A stretch of DNA of 64,000 nt from Lepisosteus oculatus. Lineage: Eukaryota > Chordata > Actinopteri > Semionotiformes > Lepisosteidae. The stretch is taken from positions 14,782,001 through 14,846,000 of the forward strand of contig NC_090704.1 of NCBI RefSeq assembly GCF_040954835.1. Reading direction: 5' to 3'. Position 1 is the first letter of the stretch, and each line of letters opens with the position of its first letter. A program made the translations under genes and the position numbers. This document shows, piece by piece, positions 1-55,055 of this stretch. Under the pieces are notes generated by a model, which was given only the letters and a program-made list of their open reading frames with translations, had not been told where the DNA came from and did not search any database.

Positions 1-3000
1 GCTGGAGTATGAAAAGTACCAAGAGCTGCAGGTGAAGTCCCAGAGAATGCAGGAGGAGTATGAGAAGCAGCTGCATGAGATGGAGGAGAGCAAGACCCAG
101 GCACTGGAGGAGCTCACAGAGTACTATGAGTCCAAGCTTCAGGAGAAACTGCTAATGCTGGAGCAGGTAACAGTGTTAACACTAGACTTCTATAGAAATA
201 TTTGTAATGGCATTTGATTAAAGCATTTCATAAGGACACTTTAAAAGTTGTACTGGAACAGGTTTTGAAATGTTTAAAAAAATCAAAGTCTGCATTTTCT
301 CTCGATGACCAAAAATATTTAAGCAGATCTTAAAGATAACAAGTAACAAGTGATATTTGTACAGGGAGAATTAAATTGAAGGAGTGCCAACAGCACAGAC
401 CCAAATAATCCTTTTAAAATCAGTAGAAGGTTTCTAAAGCAACAGTTACATAATGCTGCAAAAAAAACATTGAAATAAAAAAATCAGGAAAATGGAACTA
501 ATGTTCTCATATTTTAATTTAATGAACAACTGAAGATCTATTAATTTTTTTTTTCAATTTGATTCAGTGTTGCACCTTACCTGGCCTTCTGTGTCTCAGT
601 CTTGTGATCTCTCTGACAGTGTCAGGATGAGTCACGGCAGCAGGTGCGAGAGTTCGAGGAGTCCAAGAAGCAGATGGAGGAAGATGGGGATCGGGAGATC
701 CAGGACATCCGCATCAAGTACGAGAGACGACTGAGAGACGAGAAGGAGACCAACATGCGACTGAAGGGTGAGACCGGAATCATGAGGAAAAAGGTGGGAA
801 CAAATTTAGAGAGAGGAAAGCTTCCAGTCCACTGAATCACTTTTTTTCCCATTCTAACTCAAGCCATGTCCTCATAGCAAAGTACTATATAAACCATTGC
901 TGTAAACAGAAAAACCCAAATGAGAGATACCATCATGTATGATGTGATTATGAAGATGTGTGATAAAGTATGGAAGAAGGACTTTGGTGTTAGGATTTAT
1001 AGCAATGCTGGGAAAAATAATATTTGCAGTGACTCTTACATGGATTGTATGTGAAAAATTCAAAACTCATTTTAAGTTACGTTTTTACAGTAGATGTCAA
1101 GAATCTTAATGTCAAAAATGTTGTCAAGGATGTCAAAATGTTTATTATTTTTATTGTATTAATTTTAATTTAAGAAACAGAATATTTCAATTTGACCCTA
1201 TGACAAAATAGGGTGTCCCAAAGGCCAGAGAGTTAGACTGTTGCCTCGTAGCTCTTGAGTCCTGGCTTTGACTCCGGACTGTGGGACCTTCTGTGTTGAG
1301 TTGCATATTGCATATTTTCGTTGTGTTCTCCTGGGGTTGTGCCAAGTGCTCCAGTTTCCTGCTTCTCTCCAAAGTCATGGTGGCTAGATTATTTGGTGTC
1401 TATAAGGAGTTCCTATTTGCAATGGACTGGAGACTGGACTTCAGTTCAGAGTGTTTTCCTGCCTTGTGCTTCCATGACAGGGGACTCTTACCAGGAATAA
1501 AAGACGCTCCAATAGTGGCTGAATAAATTGAATACATCAAATGTATTTTATAGTGACATTTTCTTCAATGTGATTTTCTAAGACCCTTCTGTCTTTCCTT
1601 TGTCAAATCAGTTCAGCAGTCTGCAGAAAGAGATTGATGACAGGAATCTGGAGATTGAAAAACTGAAGTCAGAGCAACAGAAATTGCAAGGAGTCATCAG
1701 ATCCCTAGAAAAGGATATCCTTGGACTAAAGAAGGAGATCCAAGAGAGAGATGAAACTATCCAGGACAAGGTGTGTGATGCCTGAGTTATCTTACAAATA
1801 CAAACGTAAATATCAACTCTCAAACTTAGCTTCTGAAAAAAAGGATTAAATGCAAAACACATACAGACAGCTGATTGCAACAATACCTGCCATACAAATA
1901 CCAAGTCAGCAACAGCTGGGAACAAGGGGGAAGTTTGAAAGCTGAAGATGAAAGATTACATTATGAGTGCTATTATAGTGAAGCTTGCGGAAGACTCCCA
2001 AACCAACAGTTCATTGCTTCTTTGTATGATGTCTGTTTTAATTGGTAATTTGCTTAATGTTTGAATGTCACAGCTGCTGGTTATGAAAAGATTAGCCCCA
2101 AGACACCTTTAGAAATAGTTTTCTGTATCCCAGCAGCTGTGAGCTAACAATTTCAAATAATTAATTGGACTGAGCAGAAATTGTACCAAATGTTTTTTTA
2201 ATAATTAAGGAATTCAATTCAAACAGTACCACACATTAAACATGAAATGTGTATTAATCAATGCAATTAATGCAAAAGATTGGTTTGTGCTTTAGGACTT
2301 GTTTTCCAATTCAGAGCGTATTTATTACTGAACTAAAACAAAATGTTTTGTTTGAATGGCTAAAATGAAGTTTAGCAATAGGGACTGAAAGTTGTTTCTC
2401 GTCTGTAGGAGAAGCGCATCTATGACCTGAAGAAGAAAAACCAGGAACTGGAGAAGTTTAAGTTTGTACTAGACTATAAAATCAAAGAACTGAAAAAACA
2501 GATTGAACCAAGAGAGAATGACATTAAAGAAATGAAGGAGCAGATTCAAGAGGTAAAATGGGTGTCATGTGCTGCAACGTACATGTTAAGTACTCTCTAC
2601 CACCACTGAATTCCACTAAATACACAACAGTTGTACTGTACTACAATTGTACTATAATATTTAAAGACTGTCTTATATAATTCTGTTTAAAGAGAAGTTT
2701 AGCAAGCACTTTTAAATCTACTGTGTTTAATATAAAAACTGTTTTAAAATACGAACTGGGTTTAAAATGAAAAAGACTCTACAATACATGCCCTTTGTCT
2801 TGTTAGATGGAGAGTGAATTAGAACGATTCCATAAACAGAATACACAGCTGGAGCTCAACATTACGGAGCTGAAGCAGAAACTGAAGGCCACTGACAAGG
2901 AGATGCACAAGGAAATGCAAAGGGTATGTCCTTCAATCCAGGACCACTTTTGAACCAAGTGCTTGTGAATAAGGCGTATACATTACGGAGAGTAATGAGC

Positions 3001-11130: not shown

Positions 11131-13140
11131 CCGATCTTTTTTTTAAAGCGATATAAATACGCTTACGGATTGCACGAAGTGAGGAAAAAAAAGAGAACTT
11201 GCTTGGCTGAAATATACACCAGATTCATGATACTCTTTGGTCTATTTTTGTGTTCTAGCACAGCCTTCATGAATTATTTAAATAACAGCCTTTATCCGAT
11301 TGTGTGAAGCCAATCTTAACGATGGTGGTAATCCTACAGATTGGAGTGCACAGTGTGAGGCTTAAATTAAAACAAGACTTGAGTGAGAAGAGAACCACAT
11401 CGAATATAAAATCTAAAGGCAGAGGCCTTCCTTTAACTACCCATAGGTTTAATGCTCACATTATTCTGGCAGAGTGTTAATAAGATATAAAGGTTTATTT
11501 CACCTACCAATACACAGTCTGTGTTTCGGTTTGCTGGCTTCCTAGTTGTGAGAATTATCCTTTAATTGATGGGACTTTAAAAAAAAACAACTGATACAAT
11601 GGAAATCTACTCTGCAGAAAAGAAGGACTTTCTGTTAGAAAGATGATTCTTGACATGTCCAAGGTGTGCAGTCAACACTAAAGAAGAAGGCTTTCCACTG
11701 AGGAACCAGTGAGATAGGAGGGTCCATTTTCTATTTTGTATCGCAGGGAACGTAATGACACATTTGGTGATGTTGCACATTGTTATCATTTATGTTTGAA
11801 AAAATAAAAATTGGATGCTGACTTCCAGGAGACAATACTCAGTGGAGTGAGGCACAGTTGCTCACACTTCTTTTCCAGGGTCGAGGAGCAACTCGCAAAG
11901 AAAGCCTACAAGGGAGTTTCCAGGTATTTAAATCTGCTTTCCTTACGGACACTAATCCTGCCCTCCTCTCTCTGTCTGCAGTACTCTACAGTAACCTGGC
12001 TGCCCCTCACAGCTTGATGGTCAGGATGAAATCAAGCAAAGCTCAGCAGAGACACACATTTGAAGCTGAAGAGCAATGCTTTATAGTAGTACTGTACTGG
12101 ATTCTAGCTTCACTGAATTAGGGGGTGTATTGCAGACTGCACATTTCACTGAACTTTTAACATTATAAAAACCCTATTAATATTTGCAATAACTGCTAAT
12201 TATCGTGCACAATGTACAGTACGTGCAATGACACATTTGAATTCAGTGCACTGTAGGTCAATGATAAGTAGCTGCTTAGTCTAATTGAAAAGAAAAATCA
12301 ACAACAAACCCTAGCAAAATTTTGCACCTCAAACAAAATGAAAATTATATCAAGGACATACTGTATGTGAATATATAAGACCTTGAATATTTCTTCTTGC
12401 ATGGGCTTTCATTTATAAGTAATTCAACACTAAAAATTCAAAAAAAGAATACATTTGGCTGAAATAGGTTGCAATATACAATAGGCTTAGATATTCTTTT
12501 GATGTCATGTACAATTACTGTTTTATTTTTCAATTCAGAAATGCATTTCTCATCTTTGTGCTTGAATGATAAAGTGTTTTTGCAAATCACAGCAGGGAGT
12601 TATTTTTATAACTTTGTTAGTGAACACACTGACGGAAATGTCTGTAAAATTACGCTAAAGGTAATTAAGGTAAAAGCATTAAAACCTGCAATTGTGGCAG
12701 AGATGTTTAATAATTTTTAAGACCAGATTTCTTTAAACTTCATAAAGAAGTACAACAGTGCAAGTTTTGAGCATTATTGGGTTTTAAACCATTTCAATTT
12801 TTACTGTTTTATTGAGAGAATTGTTTGTATTAATATGTTTTTTTATGCTTTAATAATTCAAAAATAATTTGACTATATTGGCAGTATTGGAAGCTTTTAC
12901 AAATTTAACACGTCCGATAATTCAAAACAGAATATTGCCAGTTCAGGGTTTAATTATAGATATTTCTTGGTGAATAAGACCCAGATTGTTTTACCCTGAG
13001 GTACAGAATGTGATAAGACGTGTTAAATACAGAACAGGAGTGGGACTGTAGAGAATCCAATTACAGGGACTCACCAGGCTGTGTGTCTGGCTCTTTGGAA
13101 GGGGCTGTGGCGTGGCAGTGCGGACAGCAGGCAGGGCAAA

Positions 13141-13794
13141 ATGCCTGAGATGGATGACCTCTCTCCTCCACGGAGCCAGGTGGACCCAGCCCAGATCCAG
13201 AGGAACGTCCTGGAGGAGCAGGTGGAGCTGTGGTGGTTCCGGGAGCCCCGCAAGTCCATCCTGTGCTACTGCACATCTCTGGTGCTGATCCTGGGCTGTG
13301 GCATAGGGGGCGTGGCGCTTTTGTCCACCACCACCAGCTTGTCCAGCGAGTGGAGACTGGGTGTCGGCATGGCCCTCTGCTTGCTTGCCCTGGCCGTGCT
13401 CCTCAAGCAGTTGCTGAGCTCCGCCATCCAGGACATGAACTGCGTGCGCAGCCGCCAGCGCATCGAGATGCTGAAGAGTGGGGGTTTCTCTGACCTGCTG
13501 GTCATCCTGCTCACTGGACTGGCGCTGGTGATCTGTGGGATTGTCCTGCTCAACCTTGCCCTTGCCAGTGGGATGCCCAGGCCTGGGCTCACCCTGAATG
13601 ACATGTTCATCTCAGGGGTTGTCCTCGCTGCTGCAGGGTGCGTGACTGTCTTGTCCTTGGCAGGGTACTGCATTGTGGTCTTTATCCTCAACAGGACAGA
13701 TGCTGGCCAGAGGCTGCGGGACAGGGGTGTCAGGATCTTTACCATTTCTGGACAGATGAGAGAAACCACTTCCAGCATGGCCAACCTAATCTAG
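13141..13794 (+). CDS. tmem125: Transmembrane protein 125, complete single coding exon
   Basis: A 217-aa protein, close to human TMEM125 (219 aa). Diagnostic stretches are LEEQVELWW near residue 30, GCGIGGVALLSTT (52-64), SSEWRLGVGMALCLLALAVL (68-87), LLSSAIQDMNC (91-101), and the tail FTISGQMRETTSSMANLI, which mirrors the human FSISGQL...ETTSSIASLI. Four membrane segments lie at about 40-61, 74-94, 118-141 and 155-183, with both ends predicted cytosolic. The frame is open further upstream, but the first conserved Met is ATG 13141; an AG acceptor-like sequence just before it fits human genes in which the coding region starts shortly after a splice site. Molecular function is not established in the literature known to me. 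Position between cfap57 and the TEMP gene agrees with human 1p34. Confidence 0.95.
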   Translation: MPEMDDLSPPRSQVDPAQIQRNVLEEQVELWWFREPRKSILCYCTSLVLILGCGIGGVALLSTTTSLSSEWRLGVGMALCLLALAVLLKQLLSSAIQDMNCVRSRQRIEMLKSGGFSDLLVILLTGLALVICGIVLLNLALASGMPRPGLTLNDMFISGVVLAAAGCVTVLSLAGYCIVVFILNRTDAGQRLRDRGVRIFTISGQMRETTSSMANLI

Positions 13795-26500: not shown

Positions 26501-29500
26501 ATTTCATTTTTTAATTAAGCGTTGGTCTTCCCATTTTCTAGTGGGCAGGACAGGGAAGGTTCAGTTCACAAAGCCTAGGCTACAGAGAGAGGGGCAGGAT
26601 GTGTGGTGATGTGCATCTGATTTGTTTTTGCAATTTTTCTTGGTTTAGCCTCTTTATACAGTAATTCTCTCATTTGTCCCTCCTCTTGTCTTTTGACTTT
26701 CAGGGGACTCTGTGGAAGTGGAGTGGATTTTCCTTACGCCCTTTCATCTTTTTCCCCTCACTTCTTTCTCGAGTCCCGGCCCAGATGGGCACTACCCCTC
26801 TCTTCCTCTTCAGTGTTCTCATTGTAAACACATCATCTCCAACTCATGGCCATCAGCATACTGAAGACACAGCTACTCCAGCACTGTCTTCAAAGTATCT
26901 GGGCTGTCTTTAGATCTAGCCAGGAAAAACTTTCTTGTAAGCACCATAATAAAAATACGATACAATCTCTCAAATCATTACTGATTATGACACAGGAAAT
27001 CCTAGTAAGATAGCGTGTGCCTTGCTTTTTAGTTGTGCCTTGCTAATTAGTTACTTATTCCAAAACAGGGATAGCTCAGTAATAAAGGTTATGTGTTCTG
27101 TCTTCATCACTCTTACAATGATTTTACTTTGCTAATGTCTGTCAAAATACTTTTGTTTTGAAAGGAAAAATTGCAAAGCCTGCAATGGTTCTGAAAAAAG
27201 AAGGTGTTTTTTTATATTATCCATTTCTTTTCCTTTCACGTAGGTCAACATTAGACGCTGGCTAATCAGCCTGGCTGGCTAACTGCTTCTCTAGCATAAG
27301 TCAAATTCTTGCATCTGCAAGGTCACTTCTAGCCACCTCATCTGAGCAAAATTCAGTGCGGAGAGTGAGATTTAGGATGAAGGTTTGACACCTACAAACA
27401 TTCTAAAAAAAAAAATTGGATTATGTGGACAAAACAAAAAAAAATATTATAGAATTAGGAAAGTAAGGTGTGTTTTAGGCAACTTTGCTTCTTCGGATTC
27501 TAACTTACTTCCCGTGATTTCGAAGAGCACTTTGTCATTGAGGCCAAGACGCAGTTCTGGCATTCCAGATAAAACCACCTTCAGCTTGACGCTGCCGACG
27601 ATCTCACTGCGCAGCACACTACCATTTGCACTCACCTGCCAGAGACATACAGACATACAAAAGGGGAAGTGAGTTTCAGGGGGAGACAGGTCAAAGTATG
27701 GAGAGAAGAAGATCGAGAGGACAAGCACAGGAGGGTATGAGAGAGCTGGACAACAAAGAGCACATTAACAATGACAGAAAAAGAAGACAAGAAAGAAGAG
27801 TTGTAAGGATAGAAAGAGAGGAACGGAGAAACAGAAGAAAATGAGAGTGCAGAAAGCTGTGAAATAAAAACAAGAGTGGAAATGTAGGTTAAGTAATGGT
27901 TTCCTGTTAGGAGCTATCTCAGGAATGAGCTTTGTTGTGCTGAGTACCGGTGACCATGACTGAGCTCCACCCTGTGAAGTCCAACTTGTGCCCAGTGACC
28001 CACATTGGCGTGGGGGTGTGAGGCTGATTGAGGGCCTGTCTTAACTGCGGTACACAGGAAATTTGCAATCATTTCCTCAGCCAGTGAATTCAAGGAAGTG
28101 GGTAAATGAGCTCTGGATGTTTCTCAGTATAAAAATCAAAACAAAGTTCACATTACATTTATTCCTTCTCCATTTGTCATTCACTTTGTCTGACACCAAG
28201 TCATATTTGTGTACACAACAATTATATAAAGTATATTTGGGAATTCTCAATTAGAAAGCCTCAAACTTACAACAGAAAACTTCGGCCCAGTGGTACTGAA
28301 TTTCTCTTACCAGCAAATTGACAGACTCGATAACATCAATGAAAACTTCATTCTTCCTATATTTAATCCCCTCTGACCTCCAAGAGACAGCGTTGGTTAC
28401 TGTTGCCGGGGGCCTCGGTGCACCCACCTCCAGCTTGTGGCCCTGCTGTGTAATGTACCTGCAGAGAAAAGACAGGTCACATAGGAGACTAAAAAACAAT
28501 AGCCATCTCCAAGAAACAGCACCAAATTTATAATATGATTCTTCACGTTTATAGCATAACATAGTATGTTATGCAGCTCTACAGCGAAATACACTTCTTA
28601 TTTCCTGTTAAGTGTAAGCGTTTAATGGGTGCAATCTATCAAAATACAGCAATAAACAGGTAAACAAAACTAACTTTTTCACAGACATCCATCCATTTTC
28701 TAACGGCTTTCTCCAATTCAGGGTTGCTGGGAAGCCGGAGCCTATTCTGGCAAGCATCAGGCGCAAGGTGGGATACACTCTGGACGGGATGCCAGTCAGT
28801 ACAGACTTATTTAATACAGTATTATTTAATAAAAACAGTAGGAATCATTCTTTTTAAAAGCTCAGTAATGCAGAGGGTCTAAAACCAAACTGGTTAAATG
28901 TCTTCAGTTTAAGATTGCAGATACCTATCTATATTATAATCCACTAGAGACAGCTTGACAACACCATAGCAGAGTATGTACAGAGAAGAACCGTCCTGCA
29001 GAGGAAACCCTATTTAGACTGCATCATGTAAGGGTAGTGCTCATGACTAACTACATTCCAAGGCAGTAACGGTAAAGACTAACATCTCTTAACAGTTACT
29101 GTACATGAACAAGCTGTCACCTTGGGGCTGCTCTAGGTCTTATTCAAGTATACTGGCTAATGCCATGCTTAGAACTGCATTGAAAATGGATGTAAATGAC
29201 TGCCAAAGAGTTGAACAACACCCCGACCCCCATTACCTGTTTAGCAAATTTCTGAATTGATCACCTCCATGCCCTGCTTAATCGCAAATCGTTCAGAGTC
29301 TCCTTCCACTCTAAGTTAATGTTGTCACTGTTATTATTTTAAAGGGAAATAATAAGACTTTCATTCCAAGCCTTGCTATCATTTCTTCTCTTTATACCCA
29401 TTTAACCTTTTCCCTCTCAGATTTAGGAACAATGCCTGCTGAATTCCATTTTTTGGCTTTCTTTACGGAGTGTCTCCCCTAGTGAGTAGACCAGATGTTT

Positions 29501-32500: not shown

Positions 32501-35500
32501 GTAAAGCAGGTATAAAGAGAATTTTTATTACAATTAATTTTGATTAAATAATTATAGACCAGTCAGGCGCAATACCCATCAGAACATCAGTCAATGTATT
32601 CACTCTTTGTGTGAAGCTCACAGAAATAGAAGAACGAAAAAAAAACAATGATGCAGCCGGCAACGTAAGTCACTCTACACCCCTGATTATTGATTATTAA
32701 TCACTGAAGCCTTATCATTTGCAAGAGAATCCACAATGTAGCTTCAAAATGTGCTGCACTGAAAACAGGGACTTTGTTTTCAACACAAACAGAGCCCACA
32801 GCAAAGGGATGGAGCAACTGTTAACAACAACAAGATGTGTAAGTGCCCTCACTAAGACAGTGGCACATAGATTTGAGTTCCCTTGAAACTCCCAAAAGGG
32901 CGATTTTATATTATATGACACATATTAAGTTAGTGTTTTCCAATAAATTAAACAAAATAAATCTGCCTGAAGGTCACCGGATTTCCATATTTCCATTTTG
33001 CTCACCTGAACAATAAAATCACTGGACTGACGTGACCTCCATTCATCATGCACAGCTCAGCACTGGTAACAGCAGATTCAAATGGAGGCCTGGGGGTTTC
33101 CATTGACTGGGCAATACCCTGGTCATGTCACTCACTGTGAAAGCTGGTATTACCATGGATTAGAAAAAATGGGGAACTTGGGATATATCCGTTTTTCATG
33201 TATTTGGAACAAAAACAAAAGGGGTCTGAGAAAAGCTTCATTTTCCTTTCACACAGCCAAAAGAAAAAAAAACACTTCTGTGATTTGCACAGCAGTGAAA
33301 GAAGTATAAAACCTTTTTAGTACAATCACTCAGCATACATTGAGAACACAATTGGTCTTGAAGTATGCATGGATAACCTACTTATAACAGCATAAATTTC
33401 CAGCTGCCTTTTCCCCCTGCTTTCTTCCTGCTTGAGCAGAGGGCAGAGTGTGTGCTATCTATTCATAACTAGACAGGTATACAGCAAGATCCGGTGAGCA
33501 TACTGAGCTGTAGGGCAGCAAATATCTGTCAACCTTTAAAAAACAGGTTCTTGAAGGCTGAGCCTTTTTTTGTTACCTTCAAAGACTTCATCTGCAAGGT
33601 GAATGTGAAATTGGATTCATTTAAGGATCTCTTTTCAGTCTTTTAAGAAGTAATACCAATTTTTGTAGACTGCTTTCAAGTGCTTTGGCTGAAAATTATA
33701 CGTATTAAAATCCCAATTGTGCTGTTCACTGGCAAAACAAAACTTTTCTTTCAAGGCATGGTAGATTACAGGCTATGACAGTGCTTCATGGATAGCCCTG
33801 GGTTTAGAGTATTTGTGCTTTAGAAATCCTGTGAGGCAAAAATTTAAATGTAATTTAACTAAAAAGCTTGATAGACAATAGCTCAGGGTGCATTTGTCAG
33901 CTACCTTACAAAAGGGTAGCATAATTCCTTTCATAACAACTGTATTTGTTATGGAATAAAAATCACTGCCTCGTTCAGCTTTCTTTATTATTGGTCTTGT
34001 ACACACTTTCTATTATAAAGAGTCTTCCTTATAAATTACCCTGAGCCTATAAGTGGGTGATGGTGGTGCCTTTTGTAATAAGATACCTGATTAGCATTCA
34101 TGTTAGAATAGAAAACTTCCAATGGATCATTATTAATTTAGAGCAACAACTTTTTTTCACTCCGTATTCCAGAGTGGTTTGTATTTCTCACCGGCATTCT
34201 GGGGGGGGAATCCTCTAAACTGCTGTGCTAAGAGCACTTTCATTGCCTTTTTGCTATTTTCTATTGCTTTTTGTCACAGTTCTATCCCACAGAGATATTC
34301 TTTATTTGATAATTAAACACCCTTAACCGTGGTGAAATACAATCTGGTAAATTTCCATCATTACATTTGCATAATATGTTTTCAGTGAGTACTGGTCCTC
34401 TCTCGTTATTTTTCTATTCACATACTTCAATGTTTTAAAGGTTGTTTTTTAAAAAAAAAACACAAACCTGCAGTGGCCACTTCACAAGGTACTGCTAACT
34501 TACAACACCAGGACAGCTCAAAAACATTAGAATACAAAAAAAAATCCTTCAGCTGTTCATATACAGTAGATACCCCCATACACACCCTGCATACCACCAG
34601 ATGTAATTGCCTTAATATTGATGGAAAATTATATGAAAATGTCTACATATTCAAAAATGTGCTTTGCTGAACTGGACTGAATATTGCAAAATAGCTCAAA
34701 TTAGATTTTGAAGCACTTGCTGTGAAAAGATTAGGTTATTAAGAAGGTGAAGGAAGAGAGTCTCTCTTAGTATGTGGGACCCATATTTGAAGGGAGCAGT
34801 ATAGCATAGTGTGTATGTCTGTGGGCTCATAGCTTGTGGATTGTGGGTTCAAGTCCCTGCTGTAGGCACTGCTGTCATAACATGAGCTATGTACTTTACC
34901 TCAATTGCTCCACTCCACCAAGCTGTTTAAGGGAGGCCAGAATTCCCTGGGGTAAGCCCTGTGATGGACAGCAGATGGTTGAGTCCTACACATTTTGATT
35001 GCTTCATGCCTAGAATCCAGGCCACTTGAGCACCTGTATGTGGCTCAACAGTATTACCCACCTACTATTCATAACCATACTTCAACTGTCTTTCAACAGA
35101 CCATTCAGGTGCTGTCCAGAGTGAACAGGTTCATCTAAAGAAATACAAATCATATCATTATCTAAAACTCAATGAAAATAGAAAAAGGAAGGAATCAGAA
35201 TTAGCCAATGCAACCACAATGTGATTACTGGACAGTTACACAATGATACAATACTGCCCACACACCCTCACAGGTGTGACTCAGAGCTGCAAGGGAGACA
35301 GAGCCTACCTCAGCAAGCAACAGACTCAAGGTGGGGTACACCCTGGAATGGGACACCAGTCCATTGCAGGGCACACACACATCTAGGGCCAATTTTCCCA
35401 GAAGCCAATTAACATACCAGTATGTTTTTGAGCTGTGGGAGGAAACCAGAGCACCTAGAGGAAAACCACGGGAACATGCAAACTCCACACAGACAGCACC

Positions 35501-37420
35501 CCAGGTCCAGAATTAAACTCGGGGCTGAGGGCTAAGAGGCAGCAATGCTAACCACTGCTCCCCTGTGCCACTCAAAATTATTTTACAAGTATTTTTTAAA
35601 ATATAGCATAAACATCTTAATTTAAGAACAGGCATCCAAACACCAAGGTACTGTACCATTACCCCTGGCCTTTTTTCTGCTTGTCATTTCTGCTTCTGTT
35701 GTTCCTAATTCTTGAGTACTTCTACAATAAATTTACATTTTACTACTACAAACAAGAAGCGTCATTACAAATTAAAAAAAAACATAGATAATTGATAAGT
35801 AGATAATCAATAACTATTTGTAAAATAATAAATTGATTATTTCTAATTATTTTTTAAAGTAAAACTTTAGAAATGTGTTATCCTAAGTGGGATCTACAGT
35901 TTTTGATTACTTATTAAAATGTAATGCCGGTGTGAATTTATATTACTAACCTAACTATTCTAATCACGTCTGTAATTAAAACATATAATCTAAGTTTCAG
36001 ATAAATACAACTTCAGACAAATGCAACTAGACATATTTAGCTCTCAGAGAAGGAACAAAGCTTTGATCTTTGTAAATGAAAACATTAAAATTTTAATAGA
36101 ATTTTTACATCAAATTAGGAATAAGTGTTTATGTGTTGGCTTACAATAGACTCAAAGTCTTTAATCCACCTGTTCACCAACTGGTTAGGATGAAGAAAGC
36201 TATACAAAACAAAAAGGACAGGAACTGGTTCAGTGATTTCAATCATGATTTAACCTGAAGTCTACAGCAATGGGGAAGTAAGCATTTTACTGTACAGTAT
36301 AGTGGTCCTCGAGTTTATAGGTAGAACAATACAGAGCACACAACATAAAGATATAAGCAACAGGCATGCATTTTTCAAACTAATAAGGTAGACAGTAAAT
36401 CGTAACGTACTGTACCACTGCAGAGAGAACGTTATACATTCAAGCTCTGCAGATAACAGTTTGACATTGGACCAATATACAGTACTGTACCATCAAAGAA
36501 AAATACACACGTACATATTTACCAACGAGTCGCTTTCTAGATCTGACATTCCTTGCACTACAGTAAGCCTTAAGGTATATCATGCAGTTGGGAGAGTGAC
36601 TGATAGCGTTGGTTCTGTTTATCGGTTCTTCATATGCTGATAAAAGAAAGGTACGAAGAGATAGGAGATGGCGGAAGATAATAATTTATGATTTCAAGAC
36701 TAGGGAATTCCCTATTGTTTGAAACAATTTCAGTAAACACACAGCACACAGTATAGCGGTTGGTGCAGCATTTCAGAGTGTTTATGACTGTATAGCGTTA
36801 CACGGCCAACAGGTGAGTTCCTGTTTTTTTGCGTGTTATTTTCCCTCGGGCTGGAACAGAAAAACACCCTCTCTCCTGCGCTCGACTTCGTTATTAAACC
36901 CCTACTTCAGCAATCAGAGTTTACGGATCGCGATACTTCCCTTTACAAAGAAGATACATATTGTCTATTCAATTTCTAAAACAAAAAAGCCTTTCTCTTA
37001 CCAACATATCCAATCTTAGAAATGCGCCCAAGTGAAAACAGATATATCTGTGGTTCCTAAATTTAAATATAATAATTTGAGCTTTCAGAACGACAAGTAT
37101 GCAATCTCTTTAAATTATAACACTTTGACGTAAAATTAAATTGTCTTCATTTCTAACAGAAACGCACACTTTGACACGTTTTTTTTAGGTAAGGGGACTT
37201 GACCTCTGAAGTTACGAACATGAACCTGATATTTATCAAATATGCATGATGTCTTTTTCAAGGAAACTGTTCTTCTTCAATTTCCATTGACGCTTCCCCA
37301 AAAGTCACCTGTTGATGCAAGCCCTTATCGGCTCATACAGGTAGTAAAGTCAATACTCTGACCAGCCATACAACTCACCTTTCCTTTCAAGTCCAGGATG
37401 AAAACCGCTGACGCAGACAT
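20580..37420 (-). CDS. ap1m3: AP-1 clathrin adaptor complex mu subunit (mu1), complete, 12 coding exons
   Basis: Exons in coding order: 37379-37420, 32240-32396, 31809-31876, 31416-31546, 28311-28458, 27509-27635, 24868-25010, 24134-24205, 23438-23596, 22383-22508, 21116-21191 and 20580-20602 with stop. They sum to exactly 423 codons plus stop, the usual mu1 length, and every junction keeps frame. The N-terminal longin-like domain starts [14 protein letters not shown]; the mu homology domain covers about 168-421. The residues that line the YxxPhi cargo pocket are present: D174 in [11 protein letters not shown] and W408 in [15 protein letters not shown]. Role: the medium chain of AP-1, selecting tyrosine-motif cargo at the trans-Golgi network and endosomes. 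The sequence mixes AP1M1-like ([18 protein letters not shown]) and AP1M2-like ([27 protein letters not shown]) features, so I call it the fish-type third paralogue ap1m3. The family is certain; the paralogue number is inference. Confidence 0.93.
21262..21340 (+). repeat. tRNA-like SINE head in the last ap1m3 intron
   Basis: A-box-like GGGTAGCTCAATGGGC and B-box-like GGTTGTGATCCC at about 40 bp spacing; degenerate. Confidence 0.4.
21735..21900. mobile_element. Penelope-like element tail, two copies in inverted arrangement
   Basis: A solo tail in minus orientation (about 21735-21850) meets a second, partial tail in plus orientation (about 21840-21895). The join forms a near-perfect 37-bp palindrome around aacgtttcggct. 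Same family as the fragment at 54080-55055. It lies inside an ap1m3 intron. Confidence 0.65.
28686..28800 (-). repeat. Mermaid-like SINE, 3' fragment, minus orientation
   Basis: Starts with catccatccattttctaacg and continues through the caattcagggt, ggagcctattctgg and gacgggatgccagtcagt blocks that the copies at 35275, 45230 and 52000 share. Confidence 0.7.
34794..35060 (+). repeat. tRNA-derived SINE in ap1m3 intron 1
   Basis: tRNA-like head with B box GTGGGTTCAAGTCCC near 34850, followed by the block tactttacctcaattgctcc, common to several fish SINEs, and a body with no obvious tail. Sits in the 5-kb first coding intron of ap1m3. Confidence 0.6.
35275..35580 (-). repeat. Mermaid-like SINE, long copy, minus orientation
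   Basis: Contains the full body: gacaccagtccattgcaggg, ccagaagccaattaacatac, gtgggaggaaaccagagcac, aacatgcaaactccacacag, and the tRNA-like head region (ggcagcaatgctaaccactg) at its right end, all in reverse complement. Among the best-preserved copies here. Confidence 0.8.
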
Positions 37421-40218: not shown

Positions 40219-40255
40219 TTTATTGAATCAGCTAATTATTAATGTTCAATTTATT
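40219..40255 (-). other. Candidate poly(A) signals of the TEMP gene
   Basis: Two minus-strand AATAAA hexamers (40219-40224 and 40250-40255), about 300 bp beyond the stop at 40551. Confidence 0.4.
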
Positions 40256-40550
40256 ACAGATTGTAAAACTTTAATCTGTCATAGCTAAACATGTAGGAAA
40301 CTTCTGCCCATCATCTGGTACAGAAGCATTCAAAATTGATCCGCACAGACAGGACAAATGATCAAGTTGCCCCATCGATCAGTGCCTGTGGAAAATGATT
40401 TTAAAGATGGATTTATACCGGTGCTGTAAAAAAACCCAAACATTACTTTGGTGTTTTGTTTTTGTACTCCATGAAAGAAAGGAGTTTTCACTTTGACCCG
40501 GTAATCTGGATCAGACTAGCAACCCTCCCCATAATTCCTCTGTCTTCTCT

Positions 40551-43500
40551 TTAAGTGATTGAAAACTGAATTTCATCGTCTCTGTTCTCCTCCTCCTCCT
40601 CCTCTCCTTGTCTCTCGGCCCTCTCCCTCTCGCTGGCCTGGATGTAGTTGTCCTCAATGAAGCCATCGTCATCCTCCAGCTCACACGAGGCGGAGCTCTG
40701 AGGCCCTCGGCCTGCCAGGCCCGCCTCCAGACTCTCGGTGTCGCAACGGCTGGCCGTGTCCGTCTCAGACAGCAGGGTGTGCCGATAGCTGGCCAGGTAG
40801 TCGTGGCAAAGTTTGCACTTGACCACCAGTGCAATGAACACAGAGAGGGAGATTGCTGTCACCAGCACCGCTATCAGGTACTGCCAGGAATTCCCACTTT
40901 TCCCATCATCCTTTGATGCTGCAGGGATAAAAAGTGCATTCAGGGTTTCAGCACCTGTATGACACATTTCTATTTTCTCTGTCTCACTTCACATACCCTC
41001 AATAACTGAAACACTGAAGCACACACATCCTGTTCTGTCCGGCATTAATGTATGATGGCAGTGGACATAACATGCTGTAAATCTAGTTTGCTCTTCATTG
41101 CAACAGAGGTTCCAAGGGATATGTGGAGACTAATTGTTTTCATTATTACAATAGTTGTTCTTAATGATTTACTTAGATGGCTCCTTTATCTAAAATACAG
41201 TAATCAAACACTTTATAGAATGAGGTAACGTAATTTTGAGACACAGACTAGAGGGTACAAGCGGAAATTATGTGGAAATGCATTTAAAACCAGTAATAGG
41301 AGGCAAAGGGTTGTGGGAGTGTAGACCAAGCTACCCAGCCATGTTGTTGAAGCTCATACCCAGGTTTCCTTCAAGAAAGAGCTGGATGATATCCCTGGAT
41401 CAATTGGCAACTGATGAACAAACAGATTAGATGGGCCAAATGGTTGCTTGTGACCATTCGTAACTTCTTATAATTTCCCAGAAAACTGGAACTAAGTTAA
41501 AAAACATAAATGTAATGGAGATCTGGATGCATTATACTGTAAGTTGGTTGTGGAATACCACAATACCTCTCAAAGTTTGGAATGGGCAGCACAGAAGAAG
41601 ATCACCATTATAACAGGATTCAGCAAAAATATATTATTTGTGCAGTGCAGTGAGGAAAATTGTAGGATTCAAGTCAGGCTGGTCTTATTATTTGCACATT
41701 AGTAAATCATTGATAGCAGAAAGTGTGGAGAAAGCACACAAGTATAATGGAATGTGGCTGAGAAAGTCCTCTGTCTTTATCTATTAAAATCATGGTTGTG
41801 AAGGAAACAGAGCTATGCTACTGAATTGTGAAACAGATGTCTTACTGTTATTAAAGTTAGCTGTTGTGTTATATTTATCCACGGTTGCCTCCAATAGTTT
41901 TCTCTGGCCACTTCTCCAGGTGGTGTGGTGTATTTCATTCTCTGAAAAGTAACAAGGTAAAGTCAAAAAAGTCTATTCCATGCTTGTCTGTTTTTCTTTT
42001 CACAAGCAACCAGAATGCAGAAGTGTTCTATTTCTCTCTTCACCAATAGAAGCCCCTTTTAGGCCCCAAACTAAACCCATTTAGTTTGATAAAAACTAAT
42101 AATAAAATTACCCACCTTCTGAATTATTTTCTGGTTTGAGAATCATGTCATCTGAACCACTTGGCCAAATCACATTTCCTACTCCCTTCAGCCACTCTAA
42201 AGATGAAGGCTGTGGTTTGTCAAGCCTGTTGCCATGGAGATCCAAAAAGGACAAAACTGTCAGATCTTGGATGGCAGTAGTTAAAGAGCCCCACAGTTTG
42301 TTGTTCCTCAGCAGAAGGCTCTTCAGTTTCGGGAAGCCTTGAAAAGCCCCAGCCTTTATTTGCTTGATGTGGCAACTGCTAAGATCAAGGACTTGCAGGT
42401 TTTGTAGACTGTTGAAGGTCTTTCTCTCCAGCAGGGGGAGGTAGTTGCCCGTGAGGTTGAGGAATACCAAGGACTGAAACCTCTCCAGCTGCTTTTGGTT
42501 TCTGGTTTCAGTTAGGTCCAAGAAATTCCCTGATAAGTCCAGAACAGTCACATTGTCCCAGATCTCTGGAGGTATTTGTGTTAGCCTCTTCTGGCTGCAG
42601 TTCAATATCTGTTTTTAAGAAGATGAGTAAATTGATGTCTTGTTTTTTTATTTCAAATGAGAACTCTGCTAATATGAACAGTCATGCAAAGCTAAAGATT
42701 ATTTTGAACAGCGTACAGACTATTGTGTGTTCTGTTTTTCCCATGAACAAGCTAAGAACCAAGAGGACTCTTAACATACAAAATCACAAACTGACTGGAA
42801 AACATACGCATACTCAAAATTCAGCAGATCTATTTAGATCAGTTTTGTTAGTGAAACTATTTAGCTTTAAAACAACAAAACCCAGATAATTATTAGAGGG
42901 CTAATGGAGCTAATGTATAAGGTAATACCTGGAAAAGAAATGGCATTCATCCAATATCAGGAAACATATAAAAGCAGTACAAAACATCCAACAGATTGCA
43001 GACGTATGCATGCTGACCGAACCTGAATTTGTTTAATATTCTGAGATTCATAAATTTATGTTAATTTATATGCATTCTAAGTTCTTAACAGCTTACCATG
43101 TTTTACCAAATTAAATGCTTACATTATTATTATTGTTAATAATAATATTGAACACATAAAGAGAGACAAGACCACTGTCAATATATTCACACTAAAAGTA
43201 TGTCAGCAGAAACAGGAAACAACTAAAGCACCATGAGTTTTGCATTATCAAAACAACAGCACTCAGAAAAAACAAACTGGAGAAAAAAAATCTCAGCACC
43301 AACTAAAGAATATATTTCACCTCACAGAGCTGATAAGATACACACACAGTTACTAATGACTAAACCTTGATCCATTAATATCAGTTTAAATAGCATTATT
43401 ATTTCATTTTCTTTCAGATAGAATAGCTACCTCACGGGATACTGTAGCTCCCCAGAATGGCACGTGTTACATTAGCAGTCCAGAAAGGTGAAGGAGACGG

Positions 43501-43750
43501 AGCTCAGTGAGGCCTCATGGTCATTACAAGGGTTATGGATATATTTTTTGCATGTTCAGTTTTTACAGGTCACTAATAATACTAAAGTAGTTTTAGCCAA
43601 GTCAAATACAGTGATTGTTTTATTCGAGTTACTCTTTGCAATTCCACCTACCTCACCAATACCAACACACAAGCTGACAGCCTGTGTTACAGCAATAACA
43701 GTCCCCCAGAGACACACAACAACACCAAGTGTACAGTTTAAGGTCCCCAT
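40551..43750 (-). CDS. C1orf210/TEMP homologue with a leucine-rich-repeat ectodomain, complete
   Basis: Exons 43652-43750, 42116-42608 and 40551-40918 join in frame to 319 aa. Start: ATG 43750 opens a signal peptide ([20 protein letters not shown]). Then comes a short LRR-NT-like segment with one Cys ([11 protein letters not shown]) and about five LRRs over residues 50-180 ([59 protein letters not shown]), a single membrane helix at about 211-231, and a cytosolic tail. The join and tail are diagnostic: [15 protein letters not shown] against AKCHLCRRYHASYRH of human TEMP, and [13 protein letters not shown], identical in human. Human TEMP (113 aa) is a type III endosomal membrane protein with no LRRs; LRRC19 shares the same transmembrane/tail family. 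Here the N-terminal signal makes it type I. An upstream in-frame Met (43804) is less likely. The tail ends in a Glu run. Confidence 0.88.
41228..41470 (+). mobile_element. CR1-like LINE 3' end fragment in a TEMP intron
   Basis: Encodes the decayed C-terminus of ORF2: the segment around caagaaagagctggatgata matches the FKxxLDD stretch near the end of many fish LINE ORF2 proteins, followed by the typical gatgggccaaatggttgctt tail. 5'-truncated by more than 90 percent. Confidence 0.65.
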
Positions 43751-45229
43751 GCTTCTCTGAGCCCTGCTGAAAGAAAGACAGTTTAATTCTTCCGTCCATC
43801 CCATACCAACTGGAACACAGTAAATCTAGGGCAGAGATATGGAATTATCACTGCAGGCTTAACAAGTTTCTAAACAGCACAGCTGTTTGCACAACTACAA
43901 TTAAATTGCTTTTTTTTTTCTTTCGCACAACCATGCTGCTTAAAAAACATACCTGGCGGAATTATAAAAATGCAGATGAAAATATATACCAAAGTATTAT
44001 ATTACAGTAAAGTATTTTGTGGGTAAGGTCATATTGAACACATTTAATGTACATTAATCGGGATTAGAGAATATTGTACCTGAAGTTATAGTCTCTCCCT
44101 CTTACTGTACATCCATTGGGTTTAAGTAACAACATAAATAAACAAACTAAATAAATATACTTTATAAGGGCCACTTGTATCCTACTTTTAAGACAACGAT
44201 TTCAAGGGACTGACTGGAGAACAGTTGAGACTTGTTCATTTCTGATTTGTTCTGTACAGTGAAGTGCTGGCTAACTCTTTTTTCTGTGTTCATTTTTAAA
44301 AGTAATTCTATTCATTTTTAGGGTCTATGAATTGCAAACAAACCTCAAGGATGAAAGGTGGTGAAAACATCAGATTCACCGCCTGTACTGCTCAGGAAGC
44401 ATTATCTTTTAGGCAATGTACTGTATATCAGCTGCCATCATACTACAGGACCCTGAATGTATACAGTACATCTGCACTTGATAAATGGCTATTGTGCTTG
44501 ACCTTACTGTGGCTCTATCAACAATTTACAGACATTCTAAGCCTGTATATACATTTTGATTACTTTTATTATTTCTATTATATATGTGTTATTATACATT
44601 ATACATATGTTATTTATAAACACATGTGCATATTCCTCATAGAAAGATGTAAATATTCAATGTAAGTTGTTTTCAATCTTTTCATTAAAGGAAATCTTGC
44701 TTACAGCCCCTTTTGGCACTGAGGCCATTTTTCTCAGTGGGCAAGCCTGTTATTAGACCTCTTCCCCTAGCCTTGCCCTGCTATTGAATTCTGTATTGTT
44801 GGCTGTAAACATACTCCAGGGGCTGTCTTTATCTCTTCCTGTCTGAACACACAAAAACACCACAACAACAGGGCCTGTGAGCAGTAGTGGGAGACAAGGG
44901 GTCTTTTGTTGAAAGGTGCTGAGTTTCTCTTTCTTTCTGCTGCTTTTCATTTTAATTCAGTGGTGACTTCAGAAAAGGTTTAACGGCAAATGGCCATGGT
45001 TATGTTTGCAACACGGCCTTAAAATGACCTCTTAGAAAGTGTCCTTTATGAGGCCCGTTCTTGGGCTCTATTGAAGGTCACAATACAAAGTATTTCACAG
45101 AGCAACACCAGTGGGTGGTAGACTATAGAGTATTAACTATTAACACTATTAACTGCTCAGCTGTACCTTCACATGGGTATATGTAACCCATGAACTCCTA
45201 AAGTACTGATCTGCCACCTTTTAAGAAAA
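43751..45229. other. Upstream region of the TEMP gene
   Basis: Short 5' leader and promoter presumed close to 43751-43850. The rest is AT-rich with runs of TAT/TTA. A 112-codon ORF at 44327-44665 is rich in Y, I and F, as expected from TAT repeats, and is not supported as a gene. Confidence 0.4.
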
Positions 45230-45545
45230 CTTCCATCCATTTTCTAACCACTTTATCCAATTCAGGGTCACAAGGGAGCTGGAGCCTGTCTCTGCCAGCA
45301 AGGGGCACAAGGCAGGGTACACTCTTAATGGGATATCAGTCCATCGCAAAGGAACATACAGACACTCACACCAGGGACTGTTTTCCCAGAAACACTAACT
45401 GTAACACTTTGTTGTTGGACAGTGGGAGAAAGCTACAGCACCTGGAGGAAACCCACACAAACACAGTGAGAACATGCAAACTCCACACGTATAGCACCCC
45501 AGGTCTGGACTGAACCCAGGGCTTTAAAGGTGTGCCTCTGTACTG
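45230..45545 (-). repeat. Mermaid-like SINE, minus orientation
   Basis: Begins with ccatccattttctaaccact and runs through gatatcagtccatcgcaaag, gcacctggaggaaacccaca and gagaacatgcaaactccaca to the region of the tRNA-like head. Confidence 0.8.
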
Positions 45546-45999: not shown

Positions 46000-47639
46000 C
46001 TTGTTTTTTGTGTAGATTTGATTGATATGAAATCAATTGTAAAGTGCTTCATATTTACATGTCAAAAGAAATCTGGCTAAATGGCAATATTCAAATATAA
46101 GTCTTTTATATTGTCATCATATCACAGTTCTCGCCATGTGAAGTTAACTGAGATGGATGGGATTGTGTTATTGCTAGACCTTCAACAGCGAATGAGTAAG
46201 GAATAAGATATGTACTGTATTTCATTTCTTAGCACTCTTACAACTCATGCAAAATTCTCACTTAAGTTTTTTCCTCCCAAATTTATTTTTTCATGCTTTT
46301 ATTTTGTGACCTAGCTGAAGTAGTTTTCTGTTAGGACACTTGATTCTTACGACCACCACCACACTTCATCACCTCATTTTCAAATCATGTCCCGATCCTC
46401 CACTAATTAAACCCCCACGTTCCACATTCCCATGCTCGGTATTGGGGGTCCCTTGCTTGTCAGCTTGCTGCTAGCTAAGATTTCTCTCACTGTGTGCTTC
46501 TTTTTCCCTTGACTCTCTGGATTCTTTACCCATTGCCTAGTATTTTGGATTTCACCTTTTTGGATCGTGTTTATCGGATTAGTTCTCATTTTGAAGGATC
46601 TTAGAAGCACTGCATAGGGTCTAATTTGCTTTTCAGCTTAACGCTGCCTTACATTGATATTCCTGATTCACAAGATTATTCACCCATTCACCTAGTTTTG
46701 ACCCATTATTATTTTGCCCTAGGTGTAAATGGGGGGGGGAACAAGTAAGTTGCCTTATTTTAACTCCACTACTTGATATTTCAGTTAGTCTAGGCTTGAA
46801 AAGGAGCGGAACTGCAGTTCAACACATGGAAGCAACAAGAATTTTCAGTAAGTTTACCCCTGCAACTCGCACGTCCCAGTTTCATTGCTCTGGGATCTGG
46901 TTACTGTGTTTCTAGACATTCAATTAGTATGCAAAATGAAACCAGAATCTCATTAAACAAAACAGCCAGCAATTTTACAGACATAATATCTGACAAAGAG
47001 AAAATACAAATGCAGAACTGTTTCGTTTAATCTACATAAAAGCACGAGTCATTACTGAATTGCTTCAACTGTCAAATATACTTCTTTATTGTTCCACTGT
47101 AGACTTGGTTTTAGCATATTGTTTTGCAACTGTGGTAGGGAACAAGTTTTGGGAGACTTCTTAAAATGCCAAATTTACAAGGTCGTGCCCTAGTTTGGAA
47201 TGACTCCCACAGCAAATTAAACTGTTGAAAAATATCCTTTCAGGGCTTTTAACAAATACTAAAAACTGACTGCAACACCCACTCTAGTCAAACTATTGTC
47301 TCTTCACAATAGGGTAATTGCACAAAATAACAAAAGTAAATCTATTAAAAGAGCACAAACCAGGATGATTAACCTTTCCTTTCTATCATTTATGGTGACA
47401 ACAGGCAAAAGGGGGGAAAGGCAGAGTGGGTCACTGACCTTACCAGAAATGAGAATTTAGGTTACAGCCCGCCAGTCAGCCACAGGGCTGTGCAATTCCT
47501 TGAGCTAACAGTGAATAACAGCATTGCAATGTGATACATAGACAAGAAGAAGCCTCTGCAGAAATAGGACACAAGTTAGATTTTCATTCCCTAAAGGCAT
47601 AATCTGTGCCTTCCTTTATGGGATGTAATTGTATAATTT

Positions 47640-47950
47640 ATCCTTCCATTTTCTAACCACTTTACCCAATACAGGATTCAAGGTGGGATATACCCAGGGG
47701 GATACACCAGTCCACTGCAGGGCTCACACACATGGACATGCACACAGTAAAACCGAGGGAAATTCTCCCAGAAGCCAATTAACATACCAGTATGTCTTTA
47801 GACCTTGGGGGGAAACTGGAGCACCCAGGAGAAAACAGGGAGCACTTTGTAAACACGGGGACAACAAACTCCATGCAGATGGCACCCCAGCTCCAGAATT
47901 GAACTCGGGGCTCCAGCACTGCGCGGCAGCAATTCTAGCCACTACGGCAC
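47640..47950 (-). repeat. Mermaid-like SINE, minus orientation
   Basis: Contains ccttccattttctaaccact, gatacaccagtccactgcag, cagaagccaattaacatacc, gtatgtctttagacc and the gcggcagcaattctagccac head region. Close to the copy at 35275. Confidence 0.8.
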
Positions 47951-48404
47951 TTTGCTGTCTGTAACTGTATAATGTACAGTACTAATCTTTCTGCTAATCT
48001 TGTTTTAAGTAACAGCGATCAGTCCCATTAATCTCTAGAGACAGACAAGAATTATTCCTCAGGCGATACCAGTTTGCACCCACCCCTCAGTTATAAATTG
48101 AATTCATTATGAAAGACGAGTATTGAAGAGCAGGGTTGCCAGACTGCGTAGTAAAGTATAGTATTAGGGGGCTGACTCATAAATTACAGTATATTGTCAG
48201 AGTGTCCTAGACGCTGGAGGGGTCAGGGAAAACATTGTTAAAGGAAAGAGGTCCATGGCAAAACATTAGAAACTGTGAGATAGTAACCTACAGACCTTGC
48301 CACTGGAGTGGACAGCTGAGCACCTTTCTTTCCATTATTTTCCAATTTGCATCCATATTCTATGTCAGATCTAACATACAGTGTACATCCATTATCAGAA
48401 GACC

Positions 48405-51997: not shown

Positions 51998-52350
51998 GGG
52001 GTATTGTGGCCCAGTGGTTATCTTTGTTGCCTCATAGCACTTGGGCCCTGGGTTCAGGTTCCTGGACATAGGATGCTATCTGTGTGGAGTTTGTATGTAC
52101 TGTCTCTATCCCTGGAGGTTTTCTCTGGGTACTCTGGTTTCCTCCCACAGTCCAAAAACATACTGGTAGGTTATTTGGCTTCTGGGAAAATTGATCCTGG
52201 TGTGAGTGTGTCTGTGTTTGTGTGACAGCCCTGTGATGGACTGGCATCCTGTCCAGGGTGTGCCCTGTCTTACTCCTGTTCCCTGCTAGAATAGGCTTCG
52301 GCTCCTCTGCGACTCTGAATTGGAAGAGGCAGTTAGAAAATGAAAGGATG
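51998..52350 (+). repeat. Mermaid-like SINE, nearly full length, plus orientation
   Basis: Complete order: tRNA-like head with A box region (gtggcccagtggttatcttt) and B box (ggttcaggttcc), then gtgtggagtttgtatgtact, ggtttcctcccacagtccaa, ccctgtgatggactggcatc, ctagaataggcttcggctcc, and the tail gttagaaaatgaaaggatgg. Confidence 0.85.
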
Positions 52351-52477
52351 GACTTTCATCAAAAAAGAATTATTTTCTCCCGTATGTGAAACACTTAAAA
52401 ATACATAAAATACTAATCTAAGAAACCCTGCAGGACAGTGGCTGTGATTTCATGGACTTGTGCGCCTTTGTACTGTA

Positions 52478-54079: not shown

Positions 54080-55055
54080 GTGTTATTGACAGGGCCCTTG
54101 CCTGAGCCAAAAACACCCCTCGGACCATCAACTCAATCACGAACTCCCGCCGTAACAACCGCATTCCTTTGGTGCTTCCCTACCACCCCAACACACTTCC
54201 TATCCCCAGGACTATTAACAACACCTTTTCAATCCTACAGGGTGATCCCTCCATTGGGGCCCTCTTTTCTGACCACCCCATCATCTCATATCGGCGACCA
54301 CCTAATCTGCGTAACCTTCTTGTTCACAGCTCCTTTGACCGCCCTCAGCAACCATCCACACCAGGCACTTTCCTTTGCAACTGAGCTCGCTGTATCACCT
54401 GCAAGTACACATCTAAAACCACACTCATTCAAGGCCCCTCAGGACAATTCCTGATCACCCAGATGGCATCTTGTACCTCCAGCAACCTTATTTACTATAT
54501 CTCTTGCAGTAAATGCCCAGCCATCTATATTGGAGAAACAGGAAGGAGACTCGGAGACTGCTTCAGAGAACATGTTAGGGCTGTGAAGATTAAAGATCTC
54601 TCCAAGCCCATTGTCTCTCATTTCACCTGTGATGGCCATGACCACTCTAATCTCTCCGTCTGTGTTCTCAAAGACGGTTTTCCGAACTCATACATCAGGA
54701 AGACTACTGAAACCAAAATTATCCTGCAGCTAGGATAACACCTTCCCCTTTCTCTTAACGACAGACTACTTTTCTTATAAATTCTCTCTATTAACCTATC
54801 CTGACTTCACACCTCTTGATTGGCCTCTCTTTCTGTCCCCTGCTCCCGCCCCTCGCTCCTCCTCTCTCCCAGCTTTTGTTCTCCCACTACATTACCTTTG
54901 CTCACTGCCCTGTCTTTCTCACACCTGAAGAAAGTTCCACGGCCAAAACGTCCTGTTTTCTTTCTTCTTTTTTTCAGCATGGAATAAACCTATTACTTGT
55001 TCCTTTGCAGCCTACGCATGCTGACGCAGCTACTCACCTGAACTACTAAATTCAT
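54080..55055 (+). mobile_element. Penelope-like retroelement, 3' fragment with GIY-YIG domain and tail
   Basis: The 5' part encodes RIPLVLPYHPNTLPIPRTIN, typical of the linker between reverse transcriptase and endonuclease in Penelope-like elements. Next is a GIY-YIG nuclease core, LIYYISCSKCPAIYIGETGR, with the expected R and H further on (GRRLGDCFREH). The 3' part (54905-55055) is the repeated tail that also occurs alone at 21735, 39486, 49955 and 52478. The reverse transcriptase body is missing; the copy is 5'-truncated, broken and not autonomous. Moderate divergence from the solo tails suggests an age similar to the older SINEs here. Confidence 0.85.

Follow-up and report, generated by a model that had tools for sequence, protein, structure and literature searches.

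A gene on the minus strand of a 64,000-nucleotide stretch of the Lepisosteus oculatus genome (NC_090704.1, positions 14,782,001 to 14,846,000; the whole stretch is called the window here) is, with high probability, the orthologue of the mammalian type III endosome membrane protein TEMP (C1orf210; mouse 2610528J11Rik) in an ancestral receptor form, with TEMP and the epithelial receptor LRRC19 having arisen from one leucine-rich repeat (LRR) gene beside a TIE receptor gene and mammalian TEMP having lost the first two exons. Our confidence is high for the ancestry and low for the function. Mouse TEMP is described as a protein of 111 residues with a membrane helix at residues 30-50 and neither signal peptide nor LRRs (PMC3901140), whereas the protein predicted from the window has 351 residues and carries both; what they share is a place between TMEM125 and TIE1, a membrane segment and a tail motif.

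The gene comprises four exons on the minus strand, defined by open reading and splice sites, that join in frame with introns in phases 0, 1 and 1:

43652..43750, minus strand: exon 1, with an ATG at 43750, 33 codons and donor GAG/GTAGGT at 43652, ending in phase 0
42116..42608, minus strand: exon 2, with its acceptor at 42608 and donor AAG/GTGGGT at 42116, ending in phase 1
41846..41941, minus strand: exon 3, 96 bases, phase 1-1, from splice sites and an open frame, a putative stalk with N-glycosylation sequons
40551..40918, minus strand: exon 4, with its acceptor at 40918 and stop at 40551, encoding the membrane helix and tail
40250..40255, minus strand: candidate polyadenylation signal AATAAA from a motif scan, which also matched ATTAAA at 40275 and AATAAA at 40224

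The preliminary description of this locus had joined 43652 to 42608 and 42116 to 40918. The first junction is borne out by the donor of exon 1 and the acceptor at 42608, which join in frame. The second also reads in frame, to give 319 residues, but the third coding exon (41941-41846), missing from that incomplete exon set, probably intervenes to yield the full 351; because its 96 bases begin and end in phase 1, skipping it would preserve the frame. Exon 3 ranks top of 18 open, phase-compatible candidates within the intron, and better chance exons turned up in two of 52 control stretches of equal size taken from other parts of the window's minus strand, as judged by a crude splice-site matrix. 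This score by itself gives modest support, and with two controls beating exon 3 we place more weight on the exon at the equivalent place in the sister gene described below. On the same crude matrix the donor of exon 2 has a good score of 5.81, and the exon 2 acceptor (0.17) and exon 3 donor (1.3) score low. The gene is confirmed, from the sequence, as an open and splice-compatible model that would be spliced in vivo as listed.

The product is predicted to be a type I, single-pass membrane protein, in which a signal peptide is followed by five LRRs outside the cell, a short stalk that is glycosylated and, beyond the helix, a tail bearing the TEMP motif. By hydropathy its N-terminus is hydrophobic and signal-like (19-residue hydropathy of 2.05 at residues 10-29), and a membrane helix in exon 4 reaches 2.93 at residues 244-262. 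The product of exon 2 matches the Pfam profile LRR_8 above its cut-off (E = 5.3e-22); five repeats can be counted by eye, preceded by the remnant of a cysteine N-cap, with two cysteines around the cap at residues 28 and 37, and the LRRCT cysteines are absent. Exon 4 encodes, in order, the helix, a juxtamembrane stretch of 15 residues, an acidic motif of 13 residues and the stop codon, and the protein matches the Pfam family LRR19-TM (E = 7.9e-12; 45.7 bits against a cut-off of 27), to which mammalian TEMP also belongs. Compared by eye with the printed 15-residue motif of mammalian TEMP, within which identity among mammals is complete, the corresponding 15 residues of the window tail agree at 13 positions. 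The two profile matches and this tail uphold the earlier proposal, made from the letters of the window, that the gene combines the membrane segment and tail of TEMP with a signal peptide and about five LRRs.

Searches with the parts of the protein returned little that was specific. Exon 2 matched 292 distinct PDB sequences at 0.001, the best being the acid labile subunit of the IGF-binding complex (3.3e-27), with Toll-like receptor chains present among the best 60 of the 292; this breadth marks exon 2, at the sequence level, only as a good LRR. An NCBIfam scan gave weak LRR matches alone, far under cut-off, and relatives sought in prokaryote genomes and viral contigs were, as expected, not found. 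An AlphaFold2 model of the LRR exon alone had a mean pLDDT of 34.7 and was set aside, and a plant cysteine-rich domain that matched the helix exon at 23 bits, below the cut-off of 34.1, was dismissed as helix resemblance.

Orthology to TEMP is supported by gene order as well as by motifs. To the left of the gene the window holds:

13129..13791, plus strand: TMEM125, the left neighbour (PF15109, 2.3e-55)
2..2567, plus strand: coiled-coil exons of CFAP57, of which two were tested (2-166 and 2409-2567)

One of the CFAP57 exon queries finds CFAP57 as its best PDB match (3.7e-20); for the other, CFAP57 entries (2.1e-16 and 2.9e-16) stand behind a chain of 1266 residues labelled dynein axonemal intermediate chain 3 (1.9e-16), which also ranks second for the first query. 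Just past the right end of the window the plus strand carries a TIE-family receptor (L009 contains its EGF exons, L010 and L011 those of the kinase). Its kinase reads NVLVGENL, GEEVYVKK and TTKSDV where solved TEK has NILVGENY, GQEVYVKK and TTNSDV. A second TIE receptor, on contig C3, is nearer TEK where the receptor beside the window differs (NILVGENF, GQEVYVKK and TSNSDV), and its EGF exon matches TEK more strongly (5.9e-18, against 4.3e-13). Because both kinase and EGF exon of the C3 receptor are closer to TEK, we assign that receptor as TEK and the one beside the window as TIE1, in keeping also with the letters of human TIE1. The order at the window is therefore CFAP57, TMEM125, the present gene and TIE1. 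It equals the order around C1orf210 in a pig gene list that runs MPL, TIE1, C1orf210, TMEM125, CFAP57, EBNA1BP2 (PMC12189728), and on this basis the gene is identified as the probable TEMP orthologue. The short, ectodomain-free form of TEMP is read here as a derived mammalian state and not as a criterion of orthology. The authors who described mouse TEMP reported orthologues in mammals only and no homologue with a known function (PMC3901140).

When the whole 1.2-Gb genome was scanned with the LRR19-TM profile and all seven candidates were scored, two loci matched, each above the cut-off: that of the window gene, at 39.0 bits (E = 7.7e-7), and one at C3:64161840-64162142, also on the minus strand, at 72.1 bits (E = 3.9e-17). 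Around the second locus a gene of 371 residues can be assembled, with intron phases 0, 1 and 1:

C3:64166331-64166260, minus strand: exon 1
C3:64165661-64165148, minus strand: exon 2
C3:64163097-64162882, minus strand: exon 3
C3:64162138-64161825, minus strand: exon 4

Plus-strand coiled-coil exons flank this gene on either side, and TEK follows, also on the plus strand. Joined from both sides (207 residues), the coiled-coil exons find IFT74 as their best PDB match (0.00035), and a query of the right-side exons alone (107 residues) has no PDB match at 0.001; their translation also resembles human IFT74. In sheep, LRRC19 (94,629,884-94,643,326) lies within the bounds of IFT74 (94,607,523-94,708,596), with TEK at 94,739,266-94,838,005 (PMC9448734), and TEK and LRRC19 have elsewhere been described as nearby genes (PMC6511098). 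Because its nest in IFT74 and its TEK neighbor equal the sheep arrangement, we identify the C3 gene as LRRC19. An origin of the window gene by duplication of LRRC19, with the genuine TEMP elsewhere, would explain the LRR19-TM domain that the two have in common, but this is hardly credible against the TEMP gene order, the TEMP-type tail and the absence of a third LRR19-TM locus among the seven candidates of the genome search.

The window gene and LRRC19, a gut and kidney epithelial LRR receptor that acts on NF-kB via TRAF2 and TRAF6, are alike in having a signal, LRRs, stalk, helix, acidic tail and LRR19-TM domain, and in the same genome both consist of four coding exons with phases 0, 1 and 1 on the minus strand, ahead of a plus-strand TIE receptor. 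They differ in that the window gene is neither nested in IFT74 nor beside TEK, in that LRRC19 keeps its LRRCT cysteines in a C-terminal cap (NPWNCTC) with no counterpart in the window gene, in the length of the stalk exon (216 bases in LRRC19 against 96), and in the tail, where LRRC19 has a variant of the motif that agrees with the printed TEMP motif at nine of 15 positions, counted by eye.

Aligned exon by exon, the helix and tail of exon 4 score 135 (best of 1000 residue shuffles, 56) and exon 2, across all five repeats, scores 155 (best shuffle 61), such that none of the 1000 shuffles reached either score, though for repeats such as those of exon 2 residue shuffles are a weak control. The exon 3 sequences do not align (score 18, reached by 675 of 1000 shuffles), and the counterpart in LRRC19 is recognized by position and phase (1-1). 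Searched against the genome, the LRR exon finds LRRC19 first, at 31% identity and 50.7 bits, with the runner-up at 48.1 bits and at least 15 non-self places at E ≤ 1e-6 among the 150 of 243 candidates scored; in our own alignments LRRC19 scores 155 and other LRR genes 153 and 151, so that the LRR sequence alone hardly favors LRRC19 over other LRR genes. The near parity of these genes, together with the unalignable third exons, is what might be expected if a short TEMP-like ancestor had gained its LRR exons in the present lineage, by exon shuffling or as copies of those in LRRC19 or a different LRR gene. Such a gain is improbable, however, as it requires signal, LRR and stalk exons to have arrived with the three intron phases of LRRC19 at just the locus that pairs with it in the TIE1/TEK duplication, and a recent copy of LRRC19 is unlikely at the identity observed.

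Loss in mammals is favored over gain by the equal four-exon layout of LRRC19, which in the same genome stands beside TEK, the sister receptor of TIE1; a single loss suffices for the shared phases, strands and TIE neighbors, while a gain would need three exons with matching phases. The preliminary description had leaned the same way, and the layout of LRRC19 now argues for its preference for mammalian loss over fish gain.

A further alternative divides the window locus itself: exons 1 and 2 would make up an LRR transcript or gene of their own, and exon 4, perhaps begun at an ATG within intron 3, would encode a short TEMP of the mammalian kind. An in-frame ATG is present there (40965-40967, minus strand), 16 codons ahead of exon 4, and a protein begun at 40967 would have 138 residues, 30 of them preceding the helix, a layout like that of mammalian TEMP; moreover, read-through past the exon 2 donor adds two glycines and then a stop, which makes a secreted form with LRRs alone conceivable. 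Against this, all four exons are in frame with phases equal to those of LRRC19, the donor of exon 2 has a good score, and an ATG at 40967 is not unlikely by chance. We consider two separate transcripts or genes about as doubtful as a gain of LRR exons, if anything slightly more so, and proceed with a single receptor gene that was shortened in mammals.

Under this single-gene reading, the ancestor would have been an LRR receptor gene on the opposite strand to, and just ahead of, the ancestral TIE receptor gene, and a block duplication would have produced the TEMP-TIE1 and LRRC19-TEK pairs. The duplication most likely belongs to the early vertebrate genome duplications, judging from one gene pair, TIE1 and TEK. 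In the line to mammals TEMP would then have dropped exons 1 and 2, that is, its signal peptide and LRRs, a loss that we infer from the mouse protein, printed with 111 residues. Constraint on the ectodomain may already have weakened in the window gene.

Mouse TEMP is described as having its N-terminus outside the cell and as residing in the plasma membrane and in early and recycling endosomes (PMC3901140). Because its N-terminus is outside and its tail inside, as in a type I receptor, no flip in the membrane is called for. Of the switch from type I to type III topology suggested earlier, what holds is the change of targeting signal, from a cleaved signal peptide to a self-inserting helix; the orientation in the membrane is unchanged. 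The mammalian remnant helix, which is positively charged at its cytoplasmic end, would insert itself N-out and leave N-terminus and tail on their original sides. The luminal part of mammalian TEMP has a conserved N-glycosylation site (PMC3901140), and we predict that this short segment may be what remains of the stalk.

LRRC19 is the member of the pair with a described pathway. It is reported as a gut epithelial receptor that lacks a TIR domain and works through a TRAF2 and TRAF6 route, and cells with a form of it that lacks the extracellular region were unresponsive to lactobacilli (PMC4742566); its reported binding of Desulfovibrio flagellin, with a KD of 35 uM (PMC10763354), we regard as weak. 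Toll-like receptors resemble the window protein in their extracellular LRRs and single-pass helix, but no TIR domain is detected by Pfam in the window protein. In the window protein the LRRs would probably recognize an extracellular ligand on epithelia, and the tail would keep the receptor circulating by way of early and recycling endosomes. In a scan of the tails for short motifs, TRAF2, TRAF6 and [DE]xxxL[LI] motifs have no match in the window protein or LRRC19, YxxPhi occurs twice in the LRRC19 tail and not in that of the window protein, and [DE]xxx[LI], which occurs three times in the window protein's tail and four times in that of LRRC19, is uninformative. In mouse TEMP, deletion of the C-terminal [DE]xxx[LI] left its location unchanged, and overexpression of the protein clustered early and recycling endosomes at the cell edge (PMC3901140).

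The window locus supplies TEMP with an ancestry and with a sister receptor of known pathway, and offers a case in which a receptor would have shed its entire ectodomain with the tail motif nearly unaltered, which suggests that the tail rather than ligand binding bears the conserved function. A motif common to TEMP and LRRC19 was already noted by the TEMP authors (PMC3901140). Because this motif is common to both proteins, and gut and kidney are reported sites of each, we propose, as a speculation with the odds well against it, that mammalian TEMP, as a decapitated LRR receptor and sister of the microbe-sensing LRRC19, may steer how LRRC19 moves through endosomes, as a competitor for the same tail partner, and that the lineage of the window may make both the long and the short form from a single gene. 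Among titles and the opening parts of abstracts we found no published work on the evolution of TEMP or LRRC19, and databases of the Ensembl type may well hold LRR-bearing orthologues.

Other elements occur near the two loci. On C3, between the presumed IFT74 exons, an open frame of 350 residues (64183141-64184190, minus strand) is transposase-like and of the Tc1/Sleeping Beauty kind (HTH_Tnp_Tc3_2, DDE_3, HTH_SB). In the window, the plus-strand open frame at 54385-54735, which has no Pfam match at 0.001, resembles the GIY-YIG end of a Penelope-like element. Exons on the minus strand at C3:64131702-64139474, left of IFT74, we take to resemble FSD1/FSD1L; in sheep the corresponding spot is occupied by PLAA (PMC9448734). 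Finally, a dispersed repeat is present in the window at about 28611-28854, 35228-35513, 45202-45510, 47629-47981 and 52035-52355 and on C3 from 64133472, 64148675, 64168023 and 64180411; its translations, on either strand, share by eye pieces such as a string of 17 or of 12 residues, and it looks like a SINE-type element.
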